Of a DNA stretch of 64,000 nucleotides, positions 23,755 to 33,928 are shown piece by piece (positions within the stretch are counted from its first letter, which is position 1; each line of letters opens with the position of its first letter). Below the pieces are notes generated by a model that was given only the letters and a program-made list of their open reading frames with translations, was not told where the DNA came from and ran no database searches. Location: NCBI GenBank assembly GCA_021779855.1, contig JAJXZW010000001.1, positions 1-64,000 of the forward strand, given 5' to 3'. The DNA comes from Actinomycetes bacterium (GTDB lineage: Bacteria; Actinomycetota; Acidimicrobiia; Acidimicrobiales; RAAP-2). A program made the position numbers and the translations under genes.

Positions 23755-23943
23755 GTGATTGTCCTCGGGCTGTTCGTCGCGGCGGCGGCCGCGGCGTCGC
23801 TGGTCGCCCTCGCCGCGCTCTTCGTCGCGGGGGCGGCATCGGCCCTCGCCGTCGGTCGGCTCGCGCGCGAGGACCGGCGCCGTCGCGCCGACCTCGAGCG
23901 GGTCCTCGACGAGGTGCTGGCCTCGACCGGCGAGACCGTCTAG
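23755..23943 (+). CDS. Small membrane protein, unknown
   Basis: A 62-aa single-pass protein: a long alanine/valine/leucine helix (about 2-38) followed by a charged tail (R-E-D-R-R-R-R-A-D-L-E-R-V-L-D-E) likely to form a short cytoplasmic helix. GTG 23755 has no Shine-Dalgarno, but the codons ATG-GGG-ACG-TGA just before it overlap it as GTGA, so it may be re-initiated. A CATAAT -10-like box lies at 23709-23714. Its stop shares CTAG with the opposing oxidoreductase stop. No family recognised. Confidence 0.5.
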   Translation: MIVLGLFVAAAAAASLVALAALFVAGAASALAVGRLAREDRRRRADLERVLDEVLASTGETV

Positions 23944-26144
23944 ACCACGGCCGGCCGCGCCCTCGGCGCGAGGACCTCCGCGGCCACCCGGCGGGCGAAG
24001 GCCTCGGGCTTGGTGGGGCGGATTCGGGCGTCCTCGGCGCGGTCGGCCTTGGAGAAGGCCGCACTCGCCACCACCGAGCCGCCGCGCGCCTCGACCTGGT
24101 GGGCCAGCTCCGCCGGGGCCGACCGAGGGTTTACCCCGTAGGTGCAGAAGAGCGCGACGGGTCGACCCCCGAGCCACGGGAGTCCGTCGACGAACTCGCG
24201 CATAGCGCTCGCCGCGCGCACCCGCGCCACGACGAGCCCCTCCACCCAGGTACCGAGCACCAGGGCGTCGGCCTGGGCCACCGCGAGGGCGTCGACCCGC
24301 TCGACCGGCAGCACCGACACCGTCGCGCCGGAGCGACGCAGCTCGTCGCCGACCACCTCGGCCAGGCGCGCCGTCGTCCCGCTCGCGCTGGCGTAGGCGA
24401 CGAGGACCCGGGGCGCCGGGGCCTCGGGGTCGCGCGCGCGTCCCCCGCGGGTGGGGCGCGCGTCGAGGACGGAGCGGGCCGCCCGACGGCCCTGGGCCAT
24501 CGCCTCGACGACGGTCGACGGGCCGGTGAGCGCGTCGCCCGCCGCCCAGAGCCGCTCGCGGCGGGGCATCGCCGCCTCCCAGAGGCCGACCTCACGGTCG
24601 AGCGCGAGGGCGCCGACGGGCTGGGCGAAGCACGCCGGGCTCGCGGGGTTGGCGAGGATCCCGCTGGCGCGCCAGCGTCCCGGAGCGAAGCCCCGGTGGC
24701 GCTTGGCGATCGGCGTCTGGGGCACGCGAGCGCGCAGCCCCTCGTCGATGCGGTACCCCATGGCCATCACCACGAGGTCGACCGCCAGGACGTCGAGGGA
24801 GTCGGGCGACACCACCGGCGTGCTCGCACGGTCCCGCTGGGTCGTGTGGGACAAGACGGCGCGCACGACCCGGCCGTCGAAGCCCTCCAGGCTGGTGAGC
24901 GTGCGCGAGAAGCGCACGTCGACCCCCTCGGAGCGAGCCTCGGCCAGCTCGTCGGGGCGGGCGAGGGCGAAGCGCTCGTCCAGCCAGTCGACGCACGTCG
25001 CCTCGAGGCCGAGGCGCCGGGCCAGGCGGGCGACGTCCATCGCGGTGTTGCCGGCGCCGAGCACGAGGACCCGCCGTCCCCGTTCCGGCGCGATGCCGAG
25101 TGACGCGCGGAACGCCTCGGGGTCCCCACCCGGGTCCAGGGCGGCCTTGGCCCCCTGGAGGAACGCCGTGGCGGTGCCCACCCCGTCGAGGTCCGCGCCG
25201 GGCACCGAGAGGCGCATCGCCTGGCCGGCGCCGTGGGCCATGACCAGGGCGTCGTGGGCCTCGAGGAGCTGGTCGATGTCGCCGGGCTCGACGCTCGTCG
25301 CCAGGCGCAGGTCGACCCCCGCCGCGACCAGGTCGTCCCACGGTCGGCGGGCGACGTCGTCGGGCAGGGTGAAGTCCGGGATGCCCCACACCAGCAGCCC
25401 CCCGGGCCGGTCGTCGCGCTCGTAGACGGTCACCCGCGCGCCGCCGGCGAGCAGCTCGTAGGCGGCGCCGATGGCGGCCGGACCCGAGCCGACGATGCCG
25501 ACCGACAGGGCCGTCGCGGCCGGCTCGGCGACGACCGGCGCCGGGACGGCCGCCTGGTCGGCGATGAAGCGCTCGAGCCGGCCGATGGCGACCGGCTCGC
25601 CGCCGGCCAACGACCAGGTGCACGAGCCCTCGCACTGGGCGGCCTGGTTGCAGACCCGCGAGCACACGTCGGGCAGGACCGTCGTGCGCCGCAGGATGGC
25701 GTGGGCGCCCTCGAGGTCGTGGGCCCGCACGGCCGCGACGAAGGCGGGGATGTCGTTGTGGGCCGGGCAGCCCCGCACGCAGGTGGGGTCGGGACAGGCC
25801 AGGCACCGGTTGGCCTCGGCGATCGCCTCGTCCCAGCTGGCGTAGCCCTGACGCGTCTCGGTGACGTTGGCGTGGAGCTCGACCGGGTGGCGCAGCGGCG
25901 GGTCGACCCGCGTGGCTAGCGCGAGCGGCCCCTCGACCACGATGGCGCTGAACGGGCAGGTGCGCTCGCACTGGCGACAGCCCACGCACGCGGCGTCGTT
26001 GGCCTGGGCCGTCCAGCTCGCGGGCTCCATGGACAGGGCGCCGGCCGGGCAGCGGATCACGCACTCCTGGCACCCCGCGCAGCGGTCGACGAGGACGGTG
26101 ACGTGGCGCCCGGTCTCGGTGCGCTCGCTCTCGATGATGGTCAT
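23940..26144 (-). CDS. GltD-like FAD oxidoreductase with ferredoxin and flavodoxin domains
   Basis: A 734-aa multidomain electron-transfer enzyme. Two 4Fe-4S ferredoxin motifs lie at C22/C25/C28/C32 and C53/C56/C59/C63. A GltD-type N-terminal cluster region follows (C114, C117, C122, C126), then a FAD site G-S-G-P-A-A-I-G-A-A-Y-E-L, an NAD(P)H site V-L-G-A-G-N-T-A-M-D-V-A-R and G-D-A-L-T-G-P. Residues after about 590 form a flavodoxin-like domain (V-L-V-A-Y-A-S-A-S-G-T-T-A). Fusion to flavodoxin is unusual for this family. ATG 26144 has an AGGAGT site 8 bp after the upstream stop. It is probably the partner of the polyferredoxin membrane protein. Confidence 0.82.
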   Translation of the reverse strand: MTIIESERTETGRHVTVLVDRCAGCQECVIRCPAGALSMEPASWTAQANDAACVGCRQCERTCPFSAIVVEGPLALATRVDPPLRHPVELHANVTETRQGYASWDEAIAEANRCLACPDPTCVRGCPAHNDIPAFVAAVRAHDLEGAHAILRRTTVLPDVCSRVCNQAAQCEGSCTWSLAGGEPVAIGRLERFIADQAAVPAPVVAEPAATALSVGIVGSGPAAIGAAYELLAGGARVTVYERDDRPGGLLVWGIPDFTLPDDVARRPWDDLVAAGVDLRLATSVEPGDIDQLLEAHDALVMAHGAGQAMRLSVPGADLDGVGTATAFLQGAKAALDPGGDPEAFRASLGIAPERGRRVLVLGAGNTAMDVARLARRLGLEATCVDWLDERFALARPDELAEARSEGVDVRFSRTLTSLEGFDGRVVRAVLSHTTQRDRASTPVVSPDSLDVLAVDLVVMAMGYRIDEGLRARVPQTPIAKRHRGFAPGRWRASGILANPASPACFAQPVGALALDREVGLWEAAMPRRERLWAAGDALTGPSTVVEAMAQGRRAARSVLDARPTRGGRARDPEAPAPRVLVAYASASGTTARLAEVVGDELRRSGATVSVLPVERVDALAVAQADALVLGTWVEGLVVARVRAASAMREFVDGLPWLGGRPVALFCTYGVNPRSAPAELAHQVEARGGSVVASAAFSKADRAEDARIRPTKPEAFARRVAAEVLAPRARPAVV

Positions 26145-26152
26145 CTCGACTC

Positions 26153-27730
26153 CTAGTTCGCAGCGTTCATGAACACGTACAGCACGGCGACCACGACGCC
26201 CAGCACGCCGGCCAGGGTCGTCGCCGCGACGCGCACGGCGAGGGGCCGGCGGCTCAGTGGCGCGAGGTCGCGTCCGGCGATGCGCCAGCTCGCCCACATC
26301 GCCGCCGCGGTGCCCAGGGCGACCACCAGGTCCTGGACGGCGATGATCCCGGTGTTCGAGGCGATGAGCGAGGCGTGGTAGAGGTGCGACGAGGTCGAGC
26401 CCACCCCGAACAGGTGGCCGATGGAGACCGGCACGCGCGGGACGTAGCGCAGGAACTTCGGCAGCTGGCGGGCGAAGTAGTCGGCGCCCACCACCGGGAT
26501 GATCCCGTACATGAGGGGCGCGAAGAAGCTGCGGAAGCGGCTGGTGCGCTCGACGAAGGCGGTGCCCCCGGGCGCCGGGACGAAGTCGGGCCGGGCGAAG
26601 GCCGCGCTGAAGAGACGTCCGACGAGCGCGAGCACGAGCGCCACCGCGGCGATGATCCCGACGTAGTCGACGGGGTTGGGGTACTGGGGGAAGTGGAGGT
26701 GGGCGTTGAGCCAGTTGTCGAGGCTGACGACGGCCGAGAGCGCGTTCACCTGCTGGAAGAGCACGAGGCCGAAGAGCAGCGCCACCGACCAGGCCACGTC
26801 GGCCCGGCGACGGCTGGGCGCGACCACCGAGGTGAGCGGCGGCTGGAGGTAGAGGCCGATGTTGTCCGAGGGGCAGGCCTTGTAGCACTCGGTGCACAGC
26901 CCGCAGGCCGCGTTGGAGTCGGCGCTGCCCGGCCAGGTGTACCACGGGCAGCCGTACCCCTCGGCGTCGCCGCGCATGCAGTCCTTGGTCGCACAGCTGA
27001 GGCACACCGACCGGTCCCGGGTGCGGAACCCCGCCACCGAGCCCATCGAGCCGACCGTGCCGATGAGTGCCGAGAGCGGGCAGACGTAGCGGCAGAACGT
27101 GCGCCGCTCGAAGGTGAGGAAGAAGACGACCGCCGTGCCGACGATGCCGAGGACCATGAAGCTCGTGGCCATCGGGTTGCCCGGCCCGGCGATGTTGAAG
27201 TACTCCTCGATCCAGGTGAGCACCAGGAACGCGCCGACCGAGAGCAAGAAGCCGTACTGGGCGAACCGCTCGGGCATCTTGATCCCGAGGCCCAGGCTCT
27301 TGGTGGTGCGCTTGAAGAAGCTGCGGCGCTGGATCCACTCGCCGAAGCCGCCGAAGGGGCACATCGCGCACCAGGCCCGACCGACCGCGACCATCATCAC
27401 GAAGACGAGGGCGAACCACAGGTACCAGGTGATGGCGGTGGCGAAGTTGAGCCCGGGCACCACGGTGCCCACGATCCCGATCGCGATGACGAGCCAGAAG
27501 ATGATCTGGTTGGGCAGGATGAGGAAGAACTGCAGGCGGCGGTCGCGCAGGATCCCGCCCACCCTCTTCAGGCGCGCCACGTCGAGGCCCCGGGGCGGGT
27601 CGGTGGCGGCGAAGCGGCCCGTCGTTTCGGGGTCGGCCGGCGGCCGGGTCCGGATGGCGACCGGGATCGGGTCGACCTGGTGGCTGCCCGGGAAGCCCGA
27701 CCTGGAGTGTTCCTCGGTGAGAAGTGCCAT
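26153..27730 (-). CDS. Membrane-bound polyferredoxin (NosR/NapH-like)
   Basis: A 525-aa membrane iron-sulfur protein. Cysteine groups C-A-M-C-P-F, C-R-Y-V-C-P-L, C-L-S-C-A-T-K-D-C and C-G-L-C-T-E-C-Y-K-A-C-P bind several 4Fe-4S clusters, with about nine hydrophobic segments around them. It belongs to the broad NapH/NosR/RdxA class that passes electrons across or along the membrane. ATG 27730 has a GGAAGGGG site. It is followed directly by the soluble GltD-flavodoxin fusion, suggesting electron exchange between the quinone pool and NAD(P)H. The upstream region carries a DosR-like palindrome shared with a response-regulator gene. Confidence 0.8.
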   Translation of the reverse strand: MALLTEEHSRSGFPGSHQVDPIPVAIRTRPPADPETTGRFAATDPPRGLDVARLKRVGGILRDRRLQFFLILPNQIIFWLVIAIGIVGTVVPGLNFATAITWYLWFALVFVMMVAVGRAWCAMCPFGGFGEWIQRRSFFKRTTKSLGLGIKMPERFAQYGFLLSVGAFLVLTWIEEYFNIAGPGNPMATSFMVLGIVGTAVVFFLTFERRTFCRYVCPLSALIGTVGSMGSVAGFRTRDRSVCLSCATKDCMRGDAEGYGCPWYTWPGSADSNAACGLCTECYKACPSDNIGLYLQPPLTSVVAPSRRRADVAWSVALLFGLVLFQQVNALSAVVSLDNWLNAHLHFPQYPNPVDYVGIIAAVALVLALVGRLFSAAFARPDFVPAPGGTAFVERTSRFRSFFAPLMYGIIPVVGADYFARQLPKFLRYVPRVPVSIGHLFGVGSTSSHLYHASLIASNTGIIAVQDLVVALGTAAAMWASWRIAGRDLAPLSRRPLAVRVAATTLAGVLGVVVAVLYVFMNAAN

Positions 27731-27835
27731 CGCGCCCCTTCCAACTGGTGGTCACGTCCGTATCTACGTGATTCCACTTGCCTAGGTACGTAGTACCACG
27801 CGGGCCGGGTCCCTCTCAACCACCGGGGCCAAAAA

Positions 27836-27849
27836 GGGACCAAAGTCCC
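27836..27849. promoter_or_regulatory. DosR-like palindromic operator GGGACCAAAGTCCC
   Basis: GGGACCAAAGTCCC; the other strand reads GGGACTTTGGTCCC. The mycobacterial DosR box core is GGGACTWWAGTCCC, so this differs at one central position. It lies 106 bp upstream of the polyferredoxin gene and 132 bp upstream of the divergent response regulator. On the minus strand it is followed by TTTTT, so a weak terminator hairpin is the alternative. A second dyad, GGTAC-GTA-GTACC, lies at 27784-27796. Confidence 0.5.
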
Positions 27850-27980
27850 ATGACCCAGGAATGCAGCCGTTTTCGGCCCCCCACGGGCCGGCCGGGATCG
27901 GCCGGCGGGCTCGGAGTCGGGTGGGTACCGTAGAACTACGTACACGTACCCGTAGGGTGTGCCACAGTGGGGAGGTGAGC

Positions 27981-28673
27981 GTGGACGCCGCCGAGGTCGA
28001 GACGGACCGGTCGGGGACCGATCCCATCCGGGTCCTCATCGTCGACGACCACGCCCTGGTGCGCGAGGGGACGCGAGAGCTCCTCTCCCAGGACGACTCC
28101 GTCGTCGTGGTCGGCATGGCCGGCTCGGGCGAGGAGGCCCTCGAGGCGGTGGCCGCCCTCTCGCCCGACGTGGCCCTGGTCGACGTGAACCTGCCCGCGA
28201 TGAGCGGGCTGGAGCTCTCACGCGCCCTGCTGGCCCAGTTCCCCTCGACCAAGGTCCTCGTGCTCAGTGCCTACGACGACTACGCCTACGTGGCCGAGGC
28301 GCTCGAGGTGGGCGTCGCCGGGTATCTGCTCAAGACCGCCTCGGCTAAGGAGCTGATCGACGCCGTGCGCGCCGTCCACGACGGAGTCTTCGTGCTCGAC
28401 CGCCAGGTCTCCCAACGGCTCGTGCGCCGCCGCGAGACGGCCCCGACCGCGGTGAGCGGGCTCACCCCACGCGAGACCAGCGTGCTGCAGTTGCTCGCCC
28501 AGGGCCGCTCCAACAAGCAGATCGCCACCGAGATGGCCCTGGGGACCCGCACCGTCGAGGGCTACGTCTCGAACATCCTCGCCAAGCTAGGCGTCGCCTC
28601 GCGCACCGAGGCCGTCGCCCACGCCATCCGCCACCGCCTCGTGAGCCCCTCGGGCCATGACCCCGCCCACTGA
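27981..28673 (+). CDS. NarL/DevR-type response regulator
   Basis: A 230-aa response regulator. The receiver domain (about 16-135) has the acidic pair D22-D23, the phosphoacceptor D68 in V-D-V-N-L-P and a lysine in L-L-K-T-A. The LuxR-type helix-turn-helix (about 160-225) reads L-T-P-R-E-T-S-V-L and N-K-Q-I-A, then R-T-V-E-G-Y-V-S-N-I-L-A-K-L-G, close to DosR/DevR. GTG 27981 has GGGGAGG 5 nt upstream; a TAGGGT -10 lies at 27953-27958. It overlaps the kinase gene by 17 bp. It may bind the palindrome between it and the redox operon. Confidence 0.88.
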   Translation: MDAAEVETDRSGTDPIRVLIVDDHALVREGTRELLSQDDSVVVVGMAGSGEEALEAVAALSPDVALVDVNLPAMSGLELSRALLAQFPSTKVLVLSAYDDYAYVAEALEVGVAGYLLKTASAKELIDAVRAVHDGVFVLDRQVSQRLVRRRETAPTAVSGLTPRETSVLQLLAQGRSNKQIATEMALGTRTVEGYVSNILAKLGVASRTEAVAHAIRHRLVSPSGHDPAH

Positions 28674-30084
28674 CCCTCCCGACACCCCACGCCCCCGCGG
28701 GCTCGGCGAGCGGCTGGTGCGCCCGCCCATCGCCGACGGGCCGTTCTGGATCATCCAGGGGACGGTCCTCGTGATCGTCGCGCTGCACTACCTCCTCGAC
28801 GTCCACCCCGGGCTGGCCAGCGGCGTGCTCCCGTCGGGGCTGCCGGTCGCCATCCTGGTCGTGCCGATCGGCTACGCCGCCCTGCGCTACGGCCTCCCGG
28901 GCTCGCTCGGCACCACGGCCTGGACGCTGATCCTCTGGCTGCCCGACCTCCTGTTGCCCCACGACGAGGGCCACGTGGGCGACGACCTGCTCAACTTCGC
29001 GGTCATCGTCGTGGTCGCGGTCGTCTTCGGCCGCCGGGTCGAGACCGAGCGCACGACCCAGGCCCGGATCGACTCGGCCAACGCGCGCGCCCTCGCGGTC
29101 GAGGCCGGCTACCACCGGCTCTTCGAGTCGACCCGCTCGCCCATCGTCGTGCTCGACGAGGACGAGCGCGTGAGTGACGCCAACCCGGCCGCGACGGCTC
29201 TCTTCGGGCCGCTCACCGGCCAGCCCCTCACGCGCGTCCTCGGTCCCGACCTCGACATAGCGAGCCTGTCGGGCCGGGTCCTCACCCTGGCCAATGGTCA
29301 CGACTACCGCCTGGACCTCGTCGACATGCCCTTCGACAGCGACGAGCGCCGCCAGCAGCTCAGCTTCGAGGACGTGACCGAGGAGCGCAGCGAGGAGCGT
29401 CGCGCCCGGCTCTTCGCCCGCCAGATCGTCGACCTCGAGGAGGACCAGCGCCGCCGGCTCGCCCGCGAGCTCCACGACGAGCCCCTCCAGCTCTTCTTGC
29501 ACCTCGCGCGCCGCCTCGAGCTACTCGCCCACCACGAGGGCGTCACCGAGAAGATGGCCGGCGAGCTCGAGCGCACGCGCAACCAGGCCCTGGAAGCGGC
29601 GACCCGCCTGCGATCGCTCGCGCGCGACCTGCGCCCACCCGCGCTCGACCAGCTCGGCCTGGTGCCGGCCCTCTCGAGCCTCGTGGCCGAGTTCGACGAC
29701 CAGGGCGAGGCCGCCATCAGCCTCGCGGTGCACGGCGGCCCGACGCGGCTCGCTCCCGAGGTCGAGCTGGGCGCGTTCCGGATCGTCCAGGAGTCGCTAC
29801 GCAACGCCCAGCACCACGCCGGCGCCCACCACGTGGACGTCGTCCTCGACTTCGGCGAGGACGACCTGCACCTGCGGGTGGTGGACGACGGCCGGGGCTT
29901 CGACCCCCACGCCGTGCCCGCCGCGGGCGGCTCGTCGCTCGGCGTGGTGGGGATGCGCGAGCGCGCGCGGCTGCTCGGCGGGGCCGTCGTCCTGCGCTCC
30001 ACGCCCGGGATCGGCACCGTCGTCGAGGCCACGCTCCCCACGGGCGCCCGCGAGGCGCGCCCGGCCCCGACGCCGAGCCACTGA
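28657..30084 (+). CDS. Sensor histidine kinase, HisKA_3 family
   Basis: 475 aa: about four membrane segments (30-125), a PAS-like domain (about 150-245, L-F-E-S-T-R-S-P-I-V-V-L-D-E), a HisKA_3 dimerisation helix with phosphoacceptor H273 in R-E-L-H-D-E, and a HATPase_c domain with N-A-Q-H-H-A and D-D-G-R-G-F-D. It would phosphorylate the preceding regulator. It lacks the heme-GAF domains of DosS, so the signal differs or is read through the PAS or membrane region. Confidence 0.87.
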   Translation: MTPPTDPPDTPRPRGLGERLVRPPIADGPFWIIQGTVLVIVALHYLLDVHPGLASGVLPSGLPVAILVVPIGYAALRYGLPGSLGTTAWTLILWLPDLLLPHDEGHVGDDLLNFAVIVVVAVVFGRRVETERTTQARIDSANARALAVEAGYHRLFESTRSPIVVLDEDERVSDANPAATALFGPLTGQPLTRVLGPDLDIASLSGRVLTLANGHDYRLDLVDMPFDSDERRQQLSFEDVTEERSEERRARLFARQIVDLEEDQRRRLARELHDEPLQLFLHLARRLELLAHHEGVTEKMAGELERTRNQALEAATRLRSLARDLRPPALDQLGLVPALSSLVAEFDDQGEAAISLAVHGGPTRLAPEVELGAFRIVQESLRNAQHHAGAHHVDVVLDFGEDDLHLRVVDDGRGFDPHAVPAAGGSSLGVVGMRERARLLGGAVVLRSTPGIGTVVEATLPTGAREARPAPTPSH

Positions 30085-31414: not shown

Positions 31415-33928
31415 CTAGAGGAGCGGCAGCGCGCGGCGGCGCTCGCCGGTGAGGTCGAAGAGCGCGTTCGCCACCGCCGGGGCCACGGCGATCAAGGGGG
31501 TCTCGCCGGCGCCGGCCGAGGGCAGGTCTGGCCGGTCGAGGAGCACCACCTCGATCGGCGGCACGTCACTGAAACGGGGCACCCGGTACGCGGAGAAGGA
31601 GCCGTTGGTCACGACGCCGTCGCGGAACTCGATCCGCTCGAAGAGCGCCCCGCCCAGGGCCATCACGGCCGCGCCCTCGACCTGGGCCGCCACCGTGGCC
31701 GGGTTGACGAGCGCGCCGCACTCGTACGCGGTGACCAGCCGGGACACGCGCCAACGGCTCGCGTCGCCCTCGACCTGGGCCAGGGTCGCCACCCGTCCGC
31801 CCTTCTCCAGCCCGACGGCCACGCCCTGGCCGACCCCGCGCGCGCCCTCGGCCCACCCGAAGCGTCGCGCCGCGGCGTCGAGCACGGCGACGAGGCGCTC
31901 GTCGTCGAGGATCGATCGGCGCAGCGCCACCGGGTCGAGCCCCAGGCGCGCGGCCAGCTCGTCGAGGTGGGACTCGCGCGCGAAGGCGTTCGCGGTGGCC
32001 GCGAGCGCCCGGTAGGGACCGGTGACGAAGGGTCCGGCCGCCGGCTGGTACTCGAGGCGCTCGTTCGCCACCCTGTACGGCGTCGCGATCCCGGCCGTGC
32101 CCGAGTGCAGGTTGCGCAGTGTCCAGGCCACGAGCTCGCCCGCACTCGTCGCGCCGCACTCCACGTCGACGACGGCGGCCGGCCGCAGCGTCGCGGCGAC
32201 GAACTCCTCGTGGCGCGACCACGTCACCTTGACCGGGCCGCCCACCGCGCGCGCCATCACCGCCGCCTCCAGCGCCACGGCGCCGGCGTGCTTGCCGCCG
32301 AAGCCACCGCCCGTCGGCGGGACGACGACGCGGACGTCCCGCTCGGCCACGCCCAGGCCGGCCGCGACCTGGGCGCGCACCGGGAAGGGCGTCTGCGTGC
32401 CGACCCAGACCGTCACGCGCCCGCCGTCCCAGCGCGCGAGCGCGGCCCGGCACTCGAGGGGCGCGTGGGCGATGTAGGCCGTCGTGTAGGTCGCCGCCAG
32501 GCGCACGGGGGCGGCCGCCAGGGCGTCGTCGGGCGCGCCGCGCTCCTCGCGCCAGGGCCCCTCCCAACCCTGTCCCTCGGTGACGGGGTGGGTACGCAGG
32601 TAGGCCTCGAGCCCGTCGGCCGACGGCCACTCGGGCACCGTCCAGCGGGCCGCCAACTCGCCGAGGGCGGCGCGCGCGACCGCGGCGTCGTCGGCGACGA
32701 CCCCCACCAGGCCCGACCCGGTCACGAGGGTGACGTCGTCGCGCCCCCCGAGGGCCCCCTCGTCGTAGGAGACAAGCCGGGCCCCGAGCGCCGGCGGGCG
32801 TAGGACCGCGCCGTGGCGCAGCCCCGCGCCCTGCAGGTCGGTGACGAAGCGCTGGGCCCCGGTGACCCGACCGAGCACCCCGTCGGGCACCCGCGGGCGC
32901 CCGGCCTGGCGCCAGCGGCGCGGATCGCTGAGCTCGACGCCGCCCCGAGCGACCTCCACGCGCCGCTCACCCGGGTCCGGCCGACGGCAGCGGGCCGCGA
33001 AGGCCGCAACGCGGCGCAACGCCTGGCCCGCGTCGGGCATCGAGCGGCTGCCGAAGGTGCCTCGGTCGAAGGGGCACACGTCGGTGTCGCCCATGGCGAG
33101 GCTCACGTGGTCGACGTCGACGCCCAGCTCCTCGGCCACCAGCAGCCGCAGCGCCGTGGTGTTGTCTTGCCCCACGTCGACCTTGCCGGTGAAGGCCGTG
33201 ACCCGTCCGCGGGCGTCGAGGTGCAGCCACGCGCCGACCCCGGTCGTCCACGCCGACGGGTCGGGCGGCGGCGGAGGCAGCACGACCACCAGGCCGTCGC
33301 CGAGCACGTCGAACCAGTCGGCGCGCTCGGGGTCGCTGAGGTCCCAGGGCATCTCCGGGCGCGCCGAGGGGCGGTCCCAGCCCGGCAGCGCCCAGCGCTC
33401 GCCGGCCGGGTCCGCGGGCGGGACGGGCGGAGCGCCCCGGGCGATCTCGACGGCCCGGTGGACCGCCCGGCGGATCGCCGGGTACTCCCCGCAGCGGCAG
33501 ACGTGGGGCTCGAGGGCCTCATCGATCGCCGTGTCATCGGGGTCCGCCTCGCGCTCGAGCAGGGCCACCACCGCCAGCACCATGGCCGGGGTGCAGTAGC
33601 CGCACTGGACCGCCCCGAGCTCCGCGAAGGCCGACTGGACCGGGTGCAGCGCCCCGTGGCCCAGCCCCTCGATGGTGAGCACCTCACGGCCGGCCACGTC
33701 GCCCACGCGCGCCTGGCACGAGGCCGTCGGCCGCCCCTCGACGAGGACCGAGCACGCGCCGCAGGCTCCCTCGCCGCAGCCGGGCTTCGCCCCGGTCAGT
33801 CCCCAGTCACGACGCAGCGCGACCAGGAGGGGCACCGCGGCGTCCGCCACGCGGCGCTCACCGTTGACGGTGACCGCGACGGTCGTCGGGCCCGTCCCGT
33901 GGCCCTCGAGGCCAGGGCGTTCGACCAC
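31415..33928 (-). CDS. Fused 2Fe-2S/molybdopterin hydroxylase (IorAB-like)
   Basis: An 837-aa molybdenum hydroxylase of the xanthine dehydrogenase family. The N-terminal part (about 15-165) is the iron-sulfur subunit: plant-type cluster C51, C56, C59, C71 and second cluster C109, C112, C144, C146. The remainder is the molybdopterin subunit with F-G-S-R-S-M-P-D-A-G, P-T-G-G-G-F-G-G-K and G-A-G-E-T-P near the end, as in isoquinoline 1-oxidoreductase. Small and large subunits are usually separate genes; here they are one. No FAD subunit gene is adjacent. GTG 33928 lies 6 nt after TAACAT, so translation may be leaderless. The substrate is unknown. Confidence 0.82.
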   Translation of the reverse strand: MVERPGLEGHGTGPTTVAVTVNGERRVADAAVPLLVALRRDWGLTGAKPGCGEGACGACSVLVEGRPTASCQARVGDVAGREVLTIEGLGHGALHPVQSAFAELGAVQCGYCTPAMVLAVVALLEREADPDDTAIDEALEPHVCRCGEYPAIRRAVHRAVEIARGAPPVPPADPAGERWALPGWDRPSARPEMPWDLSDPERADWFDVLGDGLVVVLPPPPPDPSAWTTGVGAWLHLDARGRVTAFTGKVDVGQDNTTALRLLVAEELGVDVDHVSLAMGDTDVCPFDRGTFGSRSMPDAGQALRRVAAFAARCRRPDPGERRVEVARGGVELSDPRRWRQAGRPRVPDGVLGRVTGAQRFVTDLQGAGLRHGAVLRPPALGARLVSYDEGALGGRDDVTLVTGSGLVGVVADDAAVARAALGELAARWTVPEWPSADGLEAYLRTHPVTEGQGWEGPWREERGAPDDALAAAPVRLAATYTTAYIAHAPLECRAALARWDGGRVTVWVGTQTPFPVRAQVAAGLGVAERDVRVVVPPTGGGFGGKHAGAVALEAAVMARAVGGPVKVTWSRHEEFVAATLRPAAVVDVECGATSAGELVAWTLRNLHSGTAGIATPYRVANERLEYQPAAGPFVTGPYRALAATANAFARESHLDELAARLGLDPVALRRSILDDERLVAVLDAAARRFGWAEGARGVGQGVAVGLEKGGRVATLAQVEGDASRWRVSRLVTAYECGALVNPATVAAQVEGAAVMALGGALFERIEFRDGVVTNGSFSAYRVPRFSDVPPIEVVLLDRPDLPSAGAGETPLIAVAPAVANALFDLTGERRRALPLL

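Follow-up and report, generated by a model that had tools for sequence, protein, structure and literature searches.

A 64,000-nucleotide stretch of DNA from an Actinomycetes bacterium (positions 1 to 64,000 of contig JAJXZW010000001.1, assembly GCA_021779855.1; referred to below as the window) carries a gene in which an N-terminal ferredoxin, a GltD-type core and a C-terminal flavodoxin are joined in a single chain, and it is followed here together with the gene for a NapH-like membrane polyferredoxin that precedes it. The two-gene module recurs in other genomes, keeps its gene order and matches no curated family among those listed. The function that we tentatively favour, with a probability of about 0.45, is that of a membrane-docked, NADH-linked oxidoreductase consisting of two proteins, which would be feeding or draining the tethered flavodoxin.

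Architecture, membrane partner and active sites

The genes and domains on which this work is centred are as follows:

23940..26144, minus strand: ferredoxin-GltD-flavodoxin (Fd-GltD-Fld) fusion protein (P0001), 734 amino acids (domain matches, relatives)
25929..26105, minus strand: N-terminal 2[4Fe-4S] ferredoxin domain, residues 14-72 (Pfam Fer4_7; 8 Cys invariant in 89/89 rows)
24450..25877, minus strand: GltD-type core, residues 90-565 (Fer4_20, Pyr_redox_2; structure match to NfnI-L)
23967..24413, minus strand: C-terminal flavodoxin domain, residues 578-726 (Pfam, profile, predicted fold)
26153..27730, minus strand: NapH-like membrane polyferredoxin (P0002), 525 amino acids, first gene of the operon (Fer4_5 in two stretches; 12 invariant Cys)

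The reading frame of the fusion is clean over its 734 codons, with the ATG at 26144 and the stop ending at 23940, and an artefact of assembly or frame can be ruled out, as the flavodoxin sequence continues in the same frame from 84 of the 89 related core open reading frames (ORFs). The 89 rows of this alignment are the window, 80 loci from a public scan (one genome per species; 203 relatives, of which the best 80 loci were kept) and 8 loci of the genome set, and 4 of the rows are duplicate records. Among the five core ORFs that are without flavodoxin, L065 stops at a contig end and L120 stops early; the rows truly lacking the domain are L039, L041 and L042, which correspond to genome G134 and two copies from genome G059.

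When the whole fusion was compared with Pfam, it was matched by Fer4_7 at residues 21-67 (3.0e-07), Fer4_20 at residues 93-198 (3.9e-34) and Pyr_redox_2 at residues 215-470 (1.4e-19), as well as by Flavodoxin_5 (2.0e-06, 28.6 bits; cut-off 27) and Flavodoxin_1 (5.6e-06, 27 bits; cut-off 25), with Flavodoxin_3 slightly below its cut-off (26.4 bits; cut-off 27.5). The flavodoxin domain on its own scores above the cut-offs of all three of these families, and in 39 flavodoxin domains selected from the 84 relatives, Flavodoxin_1, Flavodoxin_3 and Flavodoxin_5 were matched at E<=0.001 in 33, 32 and 29 cases, respectively. Further, a profile of the fused flavodoxin domains matched solved flavodoxins among the Protein Data Bank (PDB) sequences, the best being 2fz5 (1.4e-11). 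The AlphaFold model of the fusion, made from a 5-row alignment, is weak overall (mean predicted local distance difference test, pLDDT, 62.5), and its pLDDT is >80 in 9 of the 12 ten-residue blocks between residues 581 and 700. Residues 578-726 of this model align with solved flavodoxins with Z values of 18.9-20.6 in VIA-align (viz. 5wid_B, Z 20.6, 1.7 A over 137 residues, and 4heq_A, Z 19.9, 2.1 A over 138 residues), and the top structure match of residues 90-565 is NfnI-L (5jca_L; Z 27.5, 4.5 A over 416 residues, 32% identity). All 50 of the Foldseek matches listed for the model are GltD-containing chains, the flavodoxin matches having come with VIA-align. Both this model and that of the polyferredoxin were built on shallow alignments (5 and 8 rows, respectively) and are weaker than they could be. 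Judged from the model, residues 578-726 are a flavodoxin fold.

The 16 cluster Cys of the fusion form four motif sets, two in the ferredoxin domain (C22 C25 C28 C32 and C53 C56 C59 C63) and two in the GltD-type core (C114 C117 C122 C126 and C161 C165 C171 C175), where they accompany the flavin adenine dinucleotide (FAD) and NAD(P) Rossmann folds. All 16 are invariant in 89/89 rows, and therefore four [4Fe-4S] clusters are expected in this protein. The arrangement seen in the core, i.e. a Fer4_20 domain with eight cluster Cys ahead of an FAD/NAD(P) double Rossmann fold, is that of the GltD-like class. In the flavodoxin domain, the loop for the phosphate of flavin mononucleotide (FMN; S586/G589/T591) is kept in 85/85 rows having residues there, and the flavin-loop aromatics are W633 in 82/84 rows and, at position 669, Y/F in 82/82 rows; the loop and both aromatic positions are consistent with FMN binding. 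A preliminary description of this DNA, which had proposed a ferredoxin, a GltD core and a flavodoxin in one chain, with a flavodoxin fold to be sought beyond residue 590 by structure prediction, is borne out by both the Pfam matches and the predicted fold. Its count of two 4Fe-4S motifs is correct for the ferredoxin domain and too low for the chain, which has four such motifs, because the N-terminal domain of GltD adds two.

The polyferredoxin gene lies on the same strand, 8 bases upstream of the fusion gene. Its product has two Fer4_5 stretches (Pfam, 2.1e-11), as in the NapH family, and in an alignment of 73 of the 87 rows found, with 72-73 letters in each column, 12 of its Cys are invariant and none of its His reaches 95% conservation. 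These 12 Cys are predicted, by hydropathy and the positive-inside rule, to be on the cytoplasmic side; if they form three clusters, then the module would carry motifs for seven [4Fe-4S] clusters, four in the fusion and three in the partner. The curated NapH scores are missed by this protein (PRK09477, 28.3 of 234 bits; TIGR02163, 24.7 of 213.05 bits), and its profile gave one weak match among PDB sequences, to an adenylylsulfate reductase ferredoxin subunit (0.019). At all 78 loci for which the gene upstream of the fusion was called, this gene is that of the polyferredoxin, on the same strand, and the gap between the two is 8-30 bases in 59 of these. The membrane polyferredoxin remarked on earlier beside the fusion is thus confirmed as its direct upstream partner, and the two co-occur in the same 8 genomes (see below). 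A linkage of the module to quinone, which had also been suggested, is plausible because of the homology of this protein to NapH.

Two sites in the core bear upon its nicotinamide specificity and flavin chemistry:

24981..24989, minus strand: D386-W387-L388, replacing Tyr-Arg-Arg after the NAD(P) strand (D/E then W in 88/89 rows)
25368..25370, minus strand: T259, at the position of NfnI-L R201 (alignment with 5jca_L)

The NADPH-type YRR motif that follows the second Rossmann motif, a usual feature of the GltD class rather than a strict definition of it, is absent from the fusion. Positions 386-388, which align with the Tyr-Arg-Arg of other GltD proteins, are D/E, W and L/M/V in 88/89 rows, the exception being V-R-R in L042 (the second G059 copy), and YRR was found in 17/17 other GltD proteins of the class with a readable motif (26 loci scanned). 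In Rossmann folds, an acidic residue at the YRR site favours NADH and loss of the arginines disfavours NADPH; the D/E-W-x sequence predicts NADH or some other changed specificity. At the R201 position, T is found in 87/89 rows, with S and E in one row each, and Arg in 14/14 other GltD proteins of the class with a readable motif. The R333 equivalent, R396, is kept in 89/89 rows (alignment with Pyrococcus furiosus NfnI-L). According to a 2026 paper (PMC12921514), R201 of NfnI contacts FAD N5 and O4', R333 is highly conserved solely in bifurcating enzymes, and the proximal cluster carries a unique Glu ligand. This ligand, reported for P. furiosus, is not universal. The proximal cluster motif of the fusion has four Cys, with C161 in 89/89 rows where 5jca_L has T97; this all-Cys motif is a weak distinction from Nfn because the 4ylf chain, from a bifurcation study, likewise has Cys at this position. 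The unfused relative in genome G383 shows D-F-L at the YRR site, Ser for R201 and Ala for R333. Due to the presence of D-F-L and Ser already in this unfused protein, the changes at the YRR and R201 sites are apparently a trait of the polyferredoxin-linked group that predates the flavodoxin.

In comparison to known systems, the fusion is similar to NfnB/NfnI-L, the GltD-like subunit of the bifurcating transhydrogenase, in having two predicted [4Fe-4S] clusters plus FAD in its core and in keeping the R333 equivalent. However, it differs from NfnB/NfnI-L in the attached ferredoxin and flavodoxin, in the changes of R201 to Thr and of YRR to D/E-W-(L/M/V), in its all-Cys proximal motif, and in having a membrane partner and no NfnS neighbour among the families read by eye. 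A 4Fe-4S ferredoxin at the N-terminus followed by a GltD-like domain, as observed here, is also described for AegA/YgfT of Escherichia coli in a review (PMC8097209), the passages of which on these proteins mention no flavodoxin; the flavodoxin and the membrane partner set the fusion apart, and the curated AegA and YgfT scores are missed (NF009408, 201.3 of 1003 bits; NF009451, 181.4 of 1154 bits). The fused flavodoxin shares the five-stranded fold and the FMN-phosphate loop with short-chain flavodoxins (TIGR01753) and the free flavodoxins of Actinomycetota, but it is joined to a reductase core and scores 39.4 bits against the TIGR01753 cut-off of 123. The polyferredoxin shares the Fer4_5 domains and the Cys pairs at membrane helices with NapH-like membrane ferredoxins, which mediate electron passage between Fe-S and donors, quinol for example (PMC8238504). 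However, it is longer, with extra C-terminal helices, and it is paired with an FMN-type flavodoxin of the cytosol rather than with an extracytosolic flavinylated domain. As for FixABCX, no FixAB of the electron-transfer flavoprotein type and no FixC/FixX Pfam family was found in the two proteins of the module, to which this check was confined. None of the 25 NCBIfam matches listed for the fusion (of 82) reaches its cut-off, and its architecture is unnamed in the titles and abstract openings found among openly licensed PMC papers, which agrees with the earlier view that the combination is unusual. Because the assignments to Nfn and to AegA each fail in at least one tested feature, the fusion is placed apart from both, and its sequence suggests a new variant of the GltD-like class that is a member of neither.

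Distribution of the module and origin of its flavodoxin

The titles of the 80 scan loci are mainly those of metagenome-assembled Actinomycetes, Acidimicrobiaceae or Acidimicrobiales. Three loci are titled Acidobacteria (L053, L056 and L073); their fusion genes fall inside the actinobacterial rows of the tree and these are perhaps mislabelled bins. Core matches with E<1e-100 are present in 8 of the 198 genomes of the class, and strong polyferredoxin matches are confined to the same 8 genomes, with G030 and G101 showing a weaker polyferredoxin match and no strong core match. Within the genus of the window, 3 of the 10 genomes listed have the pair. More distant polyferredoxin relatives occur in G455, G416, G448, G207 and G200, and the genes called around them included no strong fusion core; this negative is weak, the gene caller being tuned to GC-rich genes and having missed the G448 polyferredoxin. 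Some genomes carry the module twice, each copy with other neighbours (L069/L070, L080/L104, L081/L115 and G059). Two pathways considered as the reason for the presence of the module were rejected, viz. autotrophy, as PF00016 (RuBisCO) occurs in 2/8 carriers (G014 and G134) and not in the genome of the window, and the ferredoxin coming from 2-oxoacid oxidoreductases, as PF01855 (POR_N) is non-discriminating, being found in 6/8 carriers and in 176/198 genomes overall.

In a profile search of 396 genomes of the phylum, the best free-standing relatives of the flavodoxin are in G363 (156 bits) and G059 (154.5 bits), and the fused flavodoxin of G014 scored 140.3 bits. Genome G059 has two unfused core genes beside polyferredoxins and a free flavodoxin copy elsewhere in the genome; the occurrence of the flavodoxin as a separate protein in G059 and as a fused domain in other genomes is a Rosetta-stone pattern, though in a single clear case and with the free copy at another site than the core genes. 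In a tree of 51 flavodoxin domains, 12 free copies group with three fused rows of unsure place, and the deep forks are weakly supported. In the midpoint-rooted core tree, the unfused G383 and G059 rows are basal and G134, the genome of which has no match to the family of the fused flavodoxin, is placed beside G014, on long branches. These sequence relationships are consistent with one fusion event and a loss in G134. In the genome of the window, the fusion is the sole Flavodoxin_1 match. Some free flavodoxins of the same family (L155:4820-5263, L156:5446-5949 and L162:5206-5649) were seen by eye to be located two genes from a MoaA-like radical S-adenosylmethionine protein and beside a MogA/MoaB-like protein, and they are candidate electron donors for MoaA.

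Proposed function and alternatives

In the reading that we favour, the fusion and the polyferredoxin would together form an oxidoreductase docked at the membrane, with the fusion as its soluble catalytic chain. The FAD in the GltD core would receive a hydride from a reduced pyridine nucleotide, NADH being likelier than NADPH, and single electrons would then move via the two GltD clusters and the two clusters of the fused ferredoxin to the cytoplasm-facing clusters of the polyferredoxin, and these would pass electrons to or from the quinone pool. The tethered flavodoxin may provide a second one-electron port, replacing free flavodoxin, by which low-potential electrons go out or in. The domain matches and predicted fold, the 16 invariant cluster Cys, the constant and co-occurring polyferredoxin with its cytoplasm-facing Cys, the acidic-aromatic replacement of YRR, the free-standing flavodoxins and the nearby regulators speak for this reading. 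If the module moves electrons between NADH, quinone and flavodoxin, then it would constitute a testable route of low-potential electron supply in these organisms. However, a number of observations speak against this reading. The proposed NADH specificity has a single motif as its basis, and NADH alone is a weak donor for the hydroquinone of an ordinary low-potential flavodoxin, unless another step drives the reaction. The quinone site is putative because the model of the polyferredoxin is poor (mean pLDDT 60, from its 8-row alignment) and nothing was matched by it in Foldseek at E<=0.001. The pair can do without a flavodoxin port, because core and polyferredoxin exist together in G134, without any match to the fused flavodoxin family in the genome, and in G383, without flavodoxin alongside. 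Further, neither the RuBisCO (2/8 carriers) nor the POR_N (6/8) pathway accounts for the distribution.

The energetic problem of reducing flavodoxin by NADH would be removed if the GltD FAD were to split the electron pair in a FixABCX-like manner, sending one electron to quinone via the polyferredoxin and the other to flavodoxin. Such flavin-based bifurcation accords with the Nfn-L fold of the core, with the presence of two ports, one at the membrane and one in the flavodoxin, and with the retention of R396 in 89/89 rows, given the role described for R333 in PMC12921514. Electron bifurcation had also been entertained in the preliminary description. However, a mechanism of the Nfn type is unsupported by the sequence: the R201 equivalent is Thr in 87/89 rows, YRR is lost, the proximal cluster has a Cys set (C161 in place of T97), and no NfnS-like subunit was seen among the neighbour families, which were read by eye, with no NfnS profile run over the loci or genomes. 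Flavodoxin-less versions also exist. We thus regard bifurcation as unlikely, its Nfn-type form being lowered rather than dismissed because the R333 equivalent is kept. A related and more specific proposal, that the module is a new kind of NADH-linked, membrane-coupled device of presumably aerobic actinobacteria, which draws on the quinone pool to energise the flavodoxin built into it and has a flavin site that bifurcates or gates in another way than in Nfn, is decidedly unlikely; if true, it would be a flavoprotein answer to the problem that FixABCX solves. The two natural replacements, Thr for R201 and D-W for YRR, in a core that otherwise resembles Nfn offer a ready test of the residues that make a GltD flavin bifurcate.

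Electrons could also flow inward, from quinol or a periplasmic donor through the polyferredoxin to flavodoxin and ferredoxin for reductive enzymes of the cytosol, or to NAD(P)H by reverse electron transport. This possibility, which we consider doubtful, is in line with the occurrence of a multi-cluster ferredoxin and an NrfD protein near the module in L042, L075 and L112 and of NrfD in L097. Carrier G014 is presumably Acidimicrobium ferrooxidans, and that species oxidises iron (PMC8790237); NapH-like proteins are held to be reduced by a donor, which in some cases is probably quinol (PMC8238504). However, no energy-coupling subunit was seen in the operon, and RuBisCO is present in 2/8 carriers only and was not found in the genome of the window. 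Lastly, the fusion might be an NADPH-dependent soluble reductase of AegA- or Nfn-like type that carries the flavodoxin as a passive passenger. The Fd-GltD order is indeed that of AegA/YgfT, with scores of 201.3 and 181.4 bits against their models, but these are far under the curated cut-offs of 1003 and 1154, the NADPH motif is lost, the membrane partner is constant and the FMN loop is invariant in 85/85 rows, which is unexpected in a passenger; this explanation is very unlikely.

Regulators and other neighbouring genes

Two regulatory genes are located divergently from the module in the window:

27957..28673, plus strand: NarL/LuxR-type response regulator, divergent, with an alternative longer start at 27861 (Pfam Response_reg, GerE)
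28657..30084, plus strand: histidine kinase with a PAS domain and a hydrophobic N-terminal part (Pfam HATPase_c, HisKA_3, PAS_8)

The gene preceding the polyferredoxin is a divergent response regulator in 30/68 loci and a divergent Rrf2 regulator in 25/68, and in the fetched stretches of the 89 sources a response regulator was found in 57, an Rrf2 regulator in 55 and a kinase in 54. The Rrf2 identity was confirmed by Pfam for one member, and several members have three spaced Cys and then a His, a pattern resembling the ligand set of IscR. Given this observed association, the two-component system or an Fe-S-type Rrf2 regulator may exert redox control over the module. Two Rrf2-type regulators (L075:9260-10201 and L112:4248-5297) have about 180-210 extra C-terminal residues, and the L075 copy gave no further Pfam match. 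The divergent promoter region of the window (27740-27960) contains, as judged by eye, several TACGTA-like and GTACC-like palindromes, which are possible regulator sites.

A multi-cluster ferredoxin and an NrfD-type protein, identified by Pfam in the L112 copies, are encoded within a few genes of the module in L042, L075 and L112, and NrfD only in L097. In L075 (1004-4832) and L112 (10719-14158), a four-gene set near the module encodes a protein with a cupredoxin-like C-x3-C-G motif, a multi-cluster 4Fe-4S protein that begins with a Tat-like leader, NrfD and a small membrane protein; the L112 copy of the first of these gave no Pfam match. In 12 sources (L035, L049-L055, L057, L058, L060 and L061, of which L035 and L060 represent a single record), genes resembling those for crotonyl-CoA reductase, methylmalonyl-CoA epimerase and a carboxylase subunit come after the module. 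The window also encodes, at 31415-33928 on the minus strand, an 837-amino-acid chain with Fer2, Fer2_2, MoCoBD_1 and MoCoBD_2 domains (Pfam), which resembles a fused small and large subunit of an enzyme of the xanthine dehydrogenase type.

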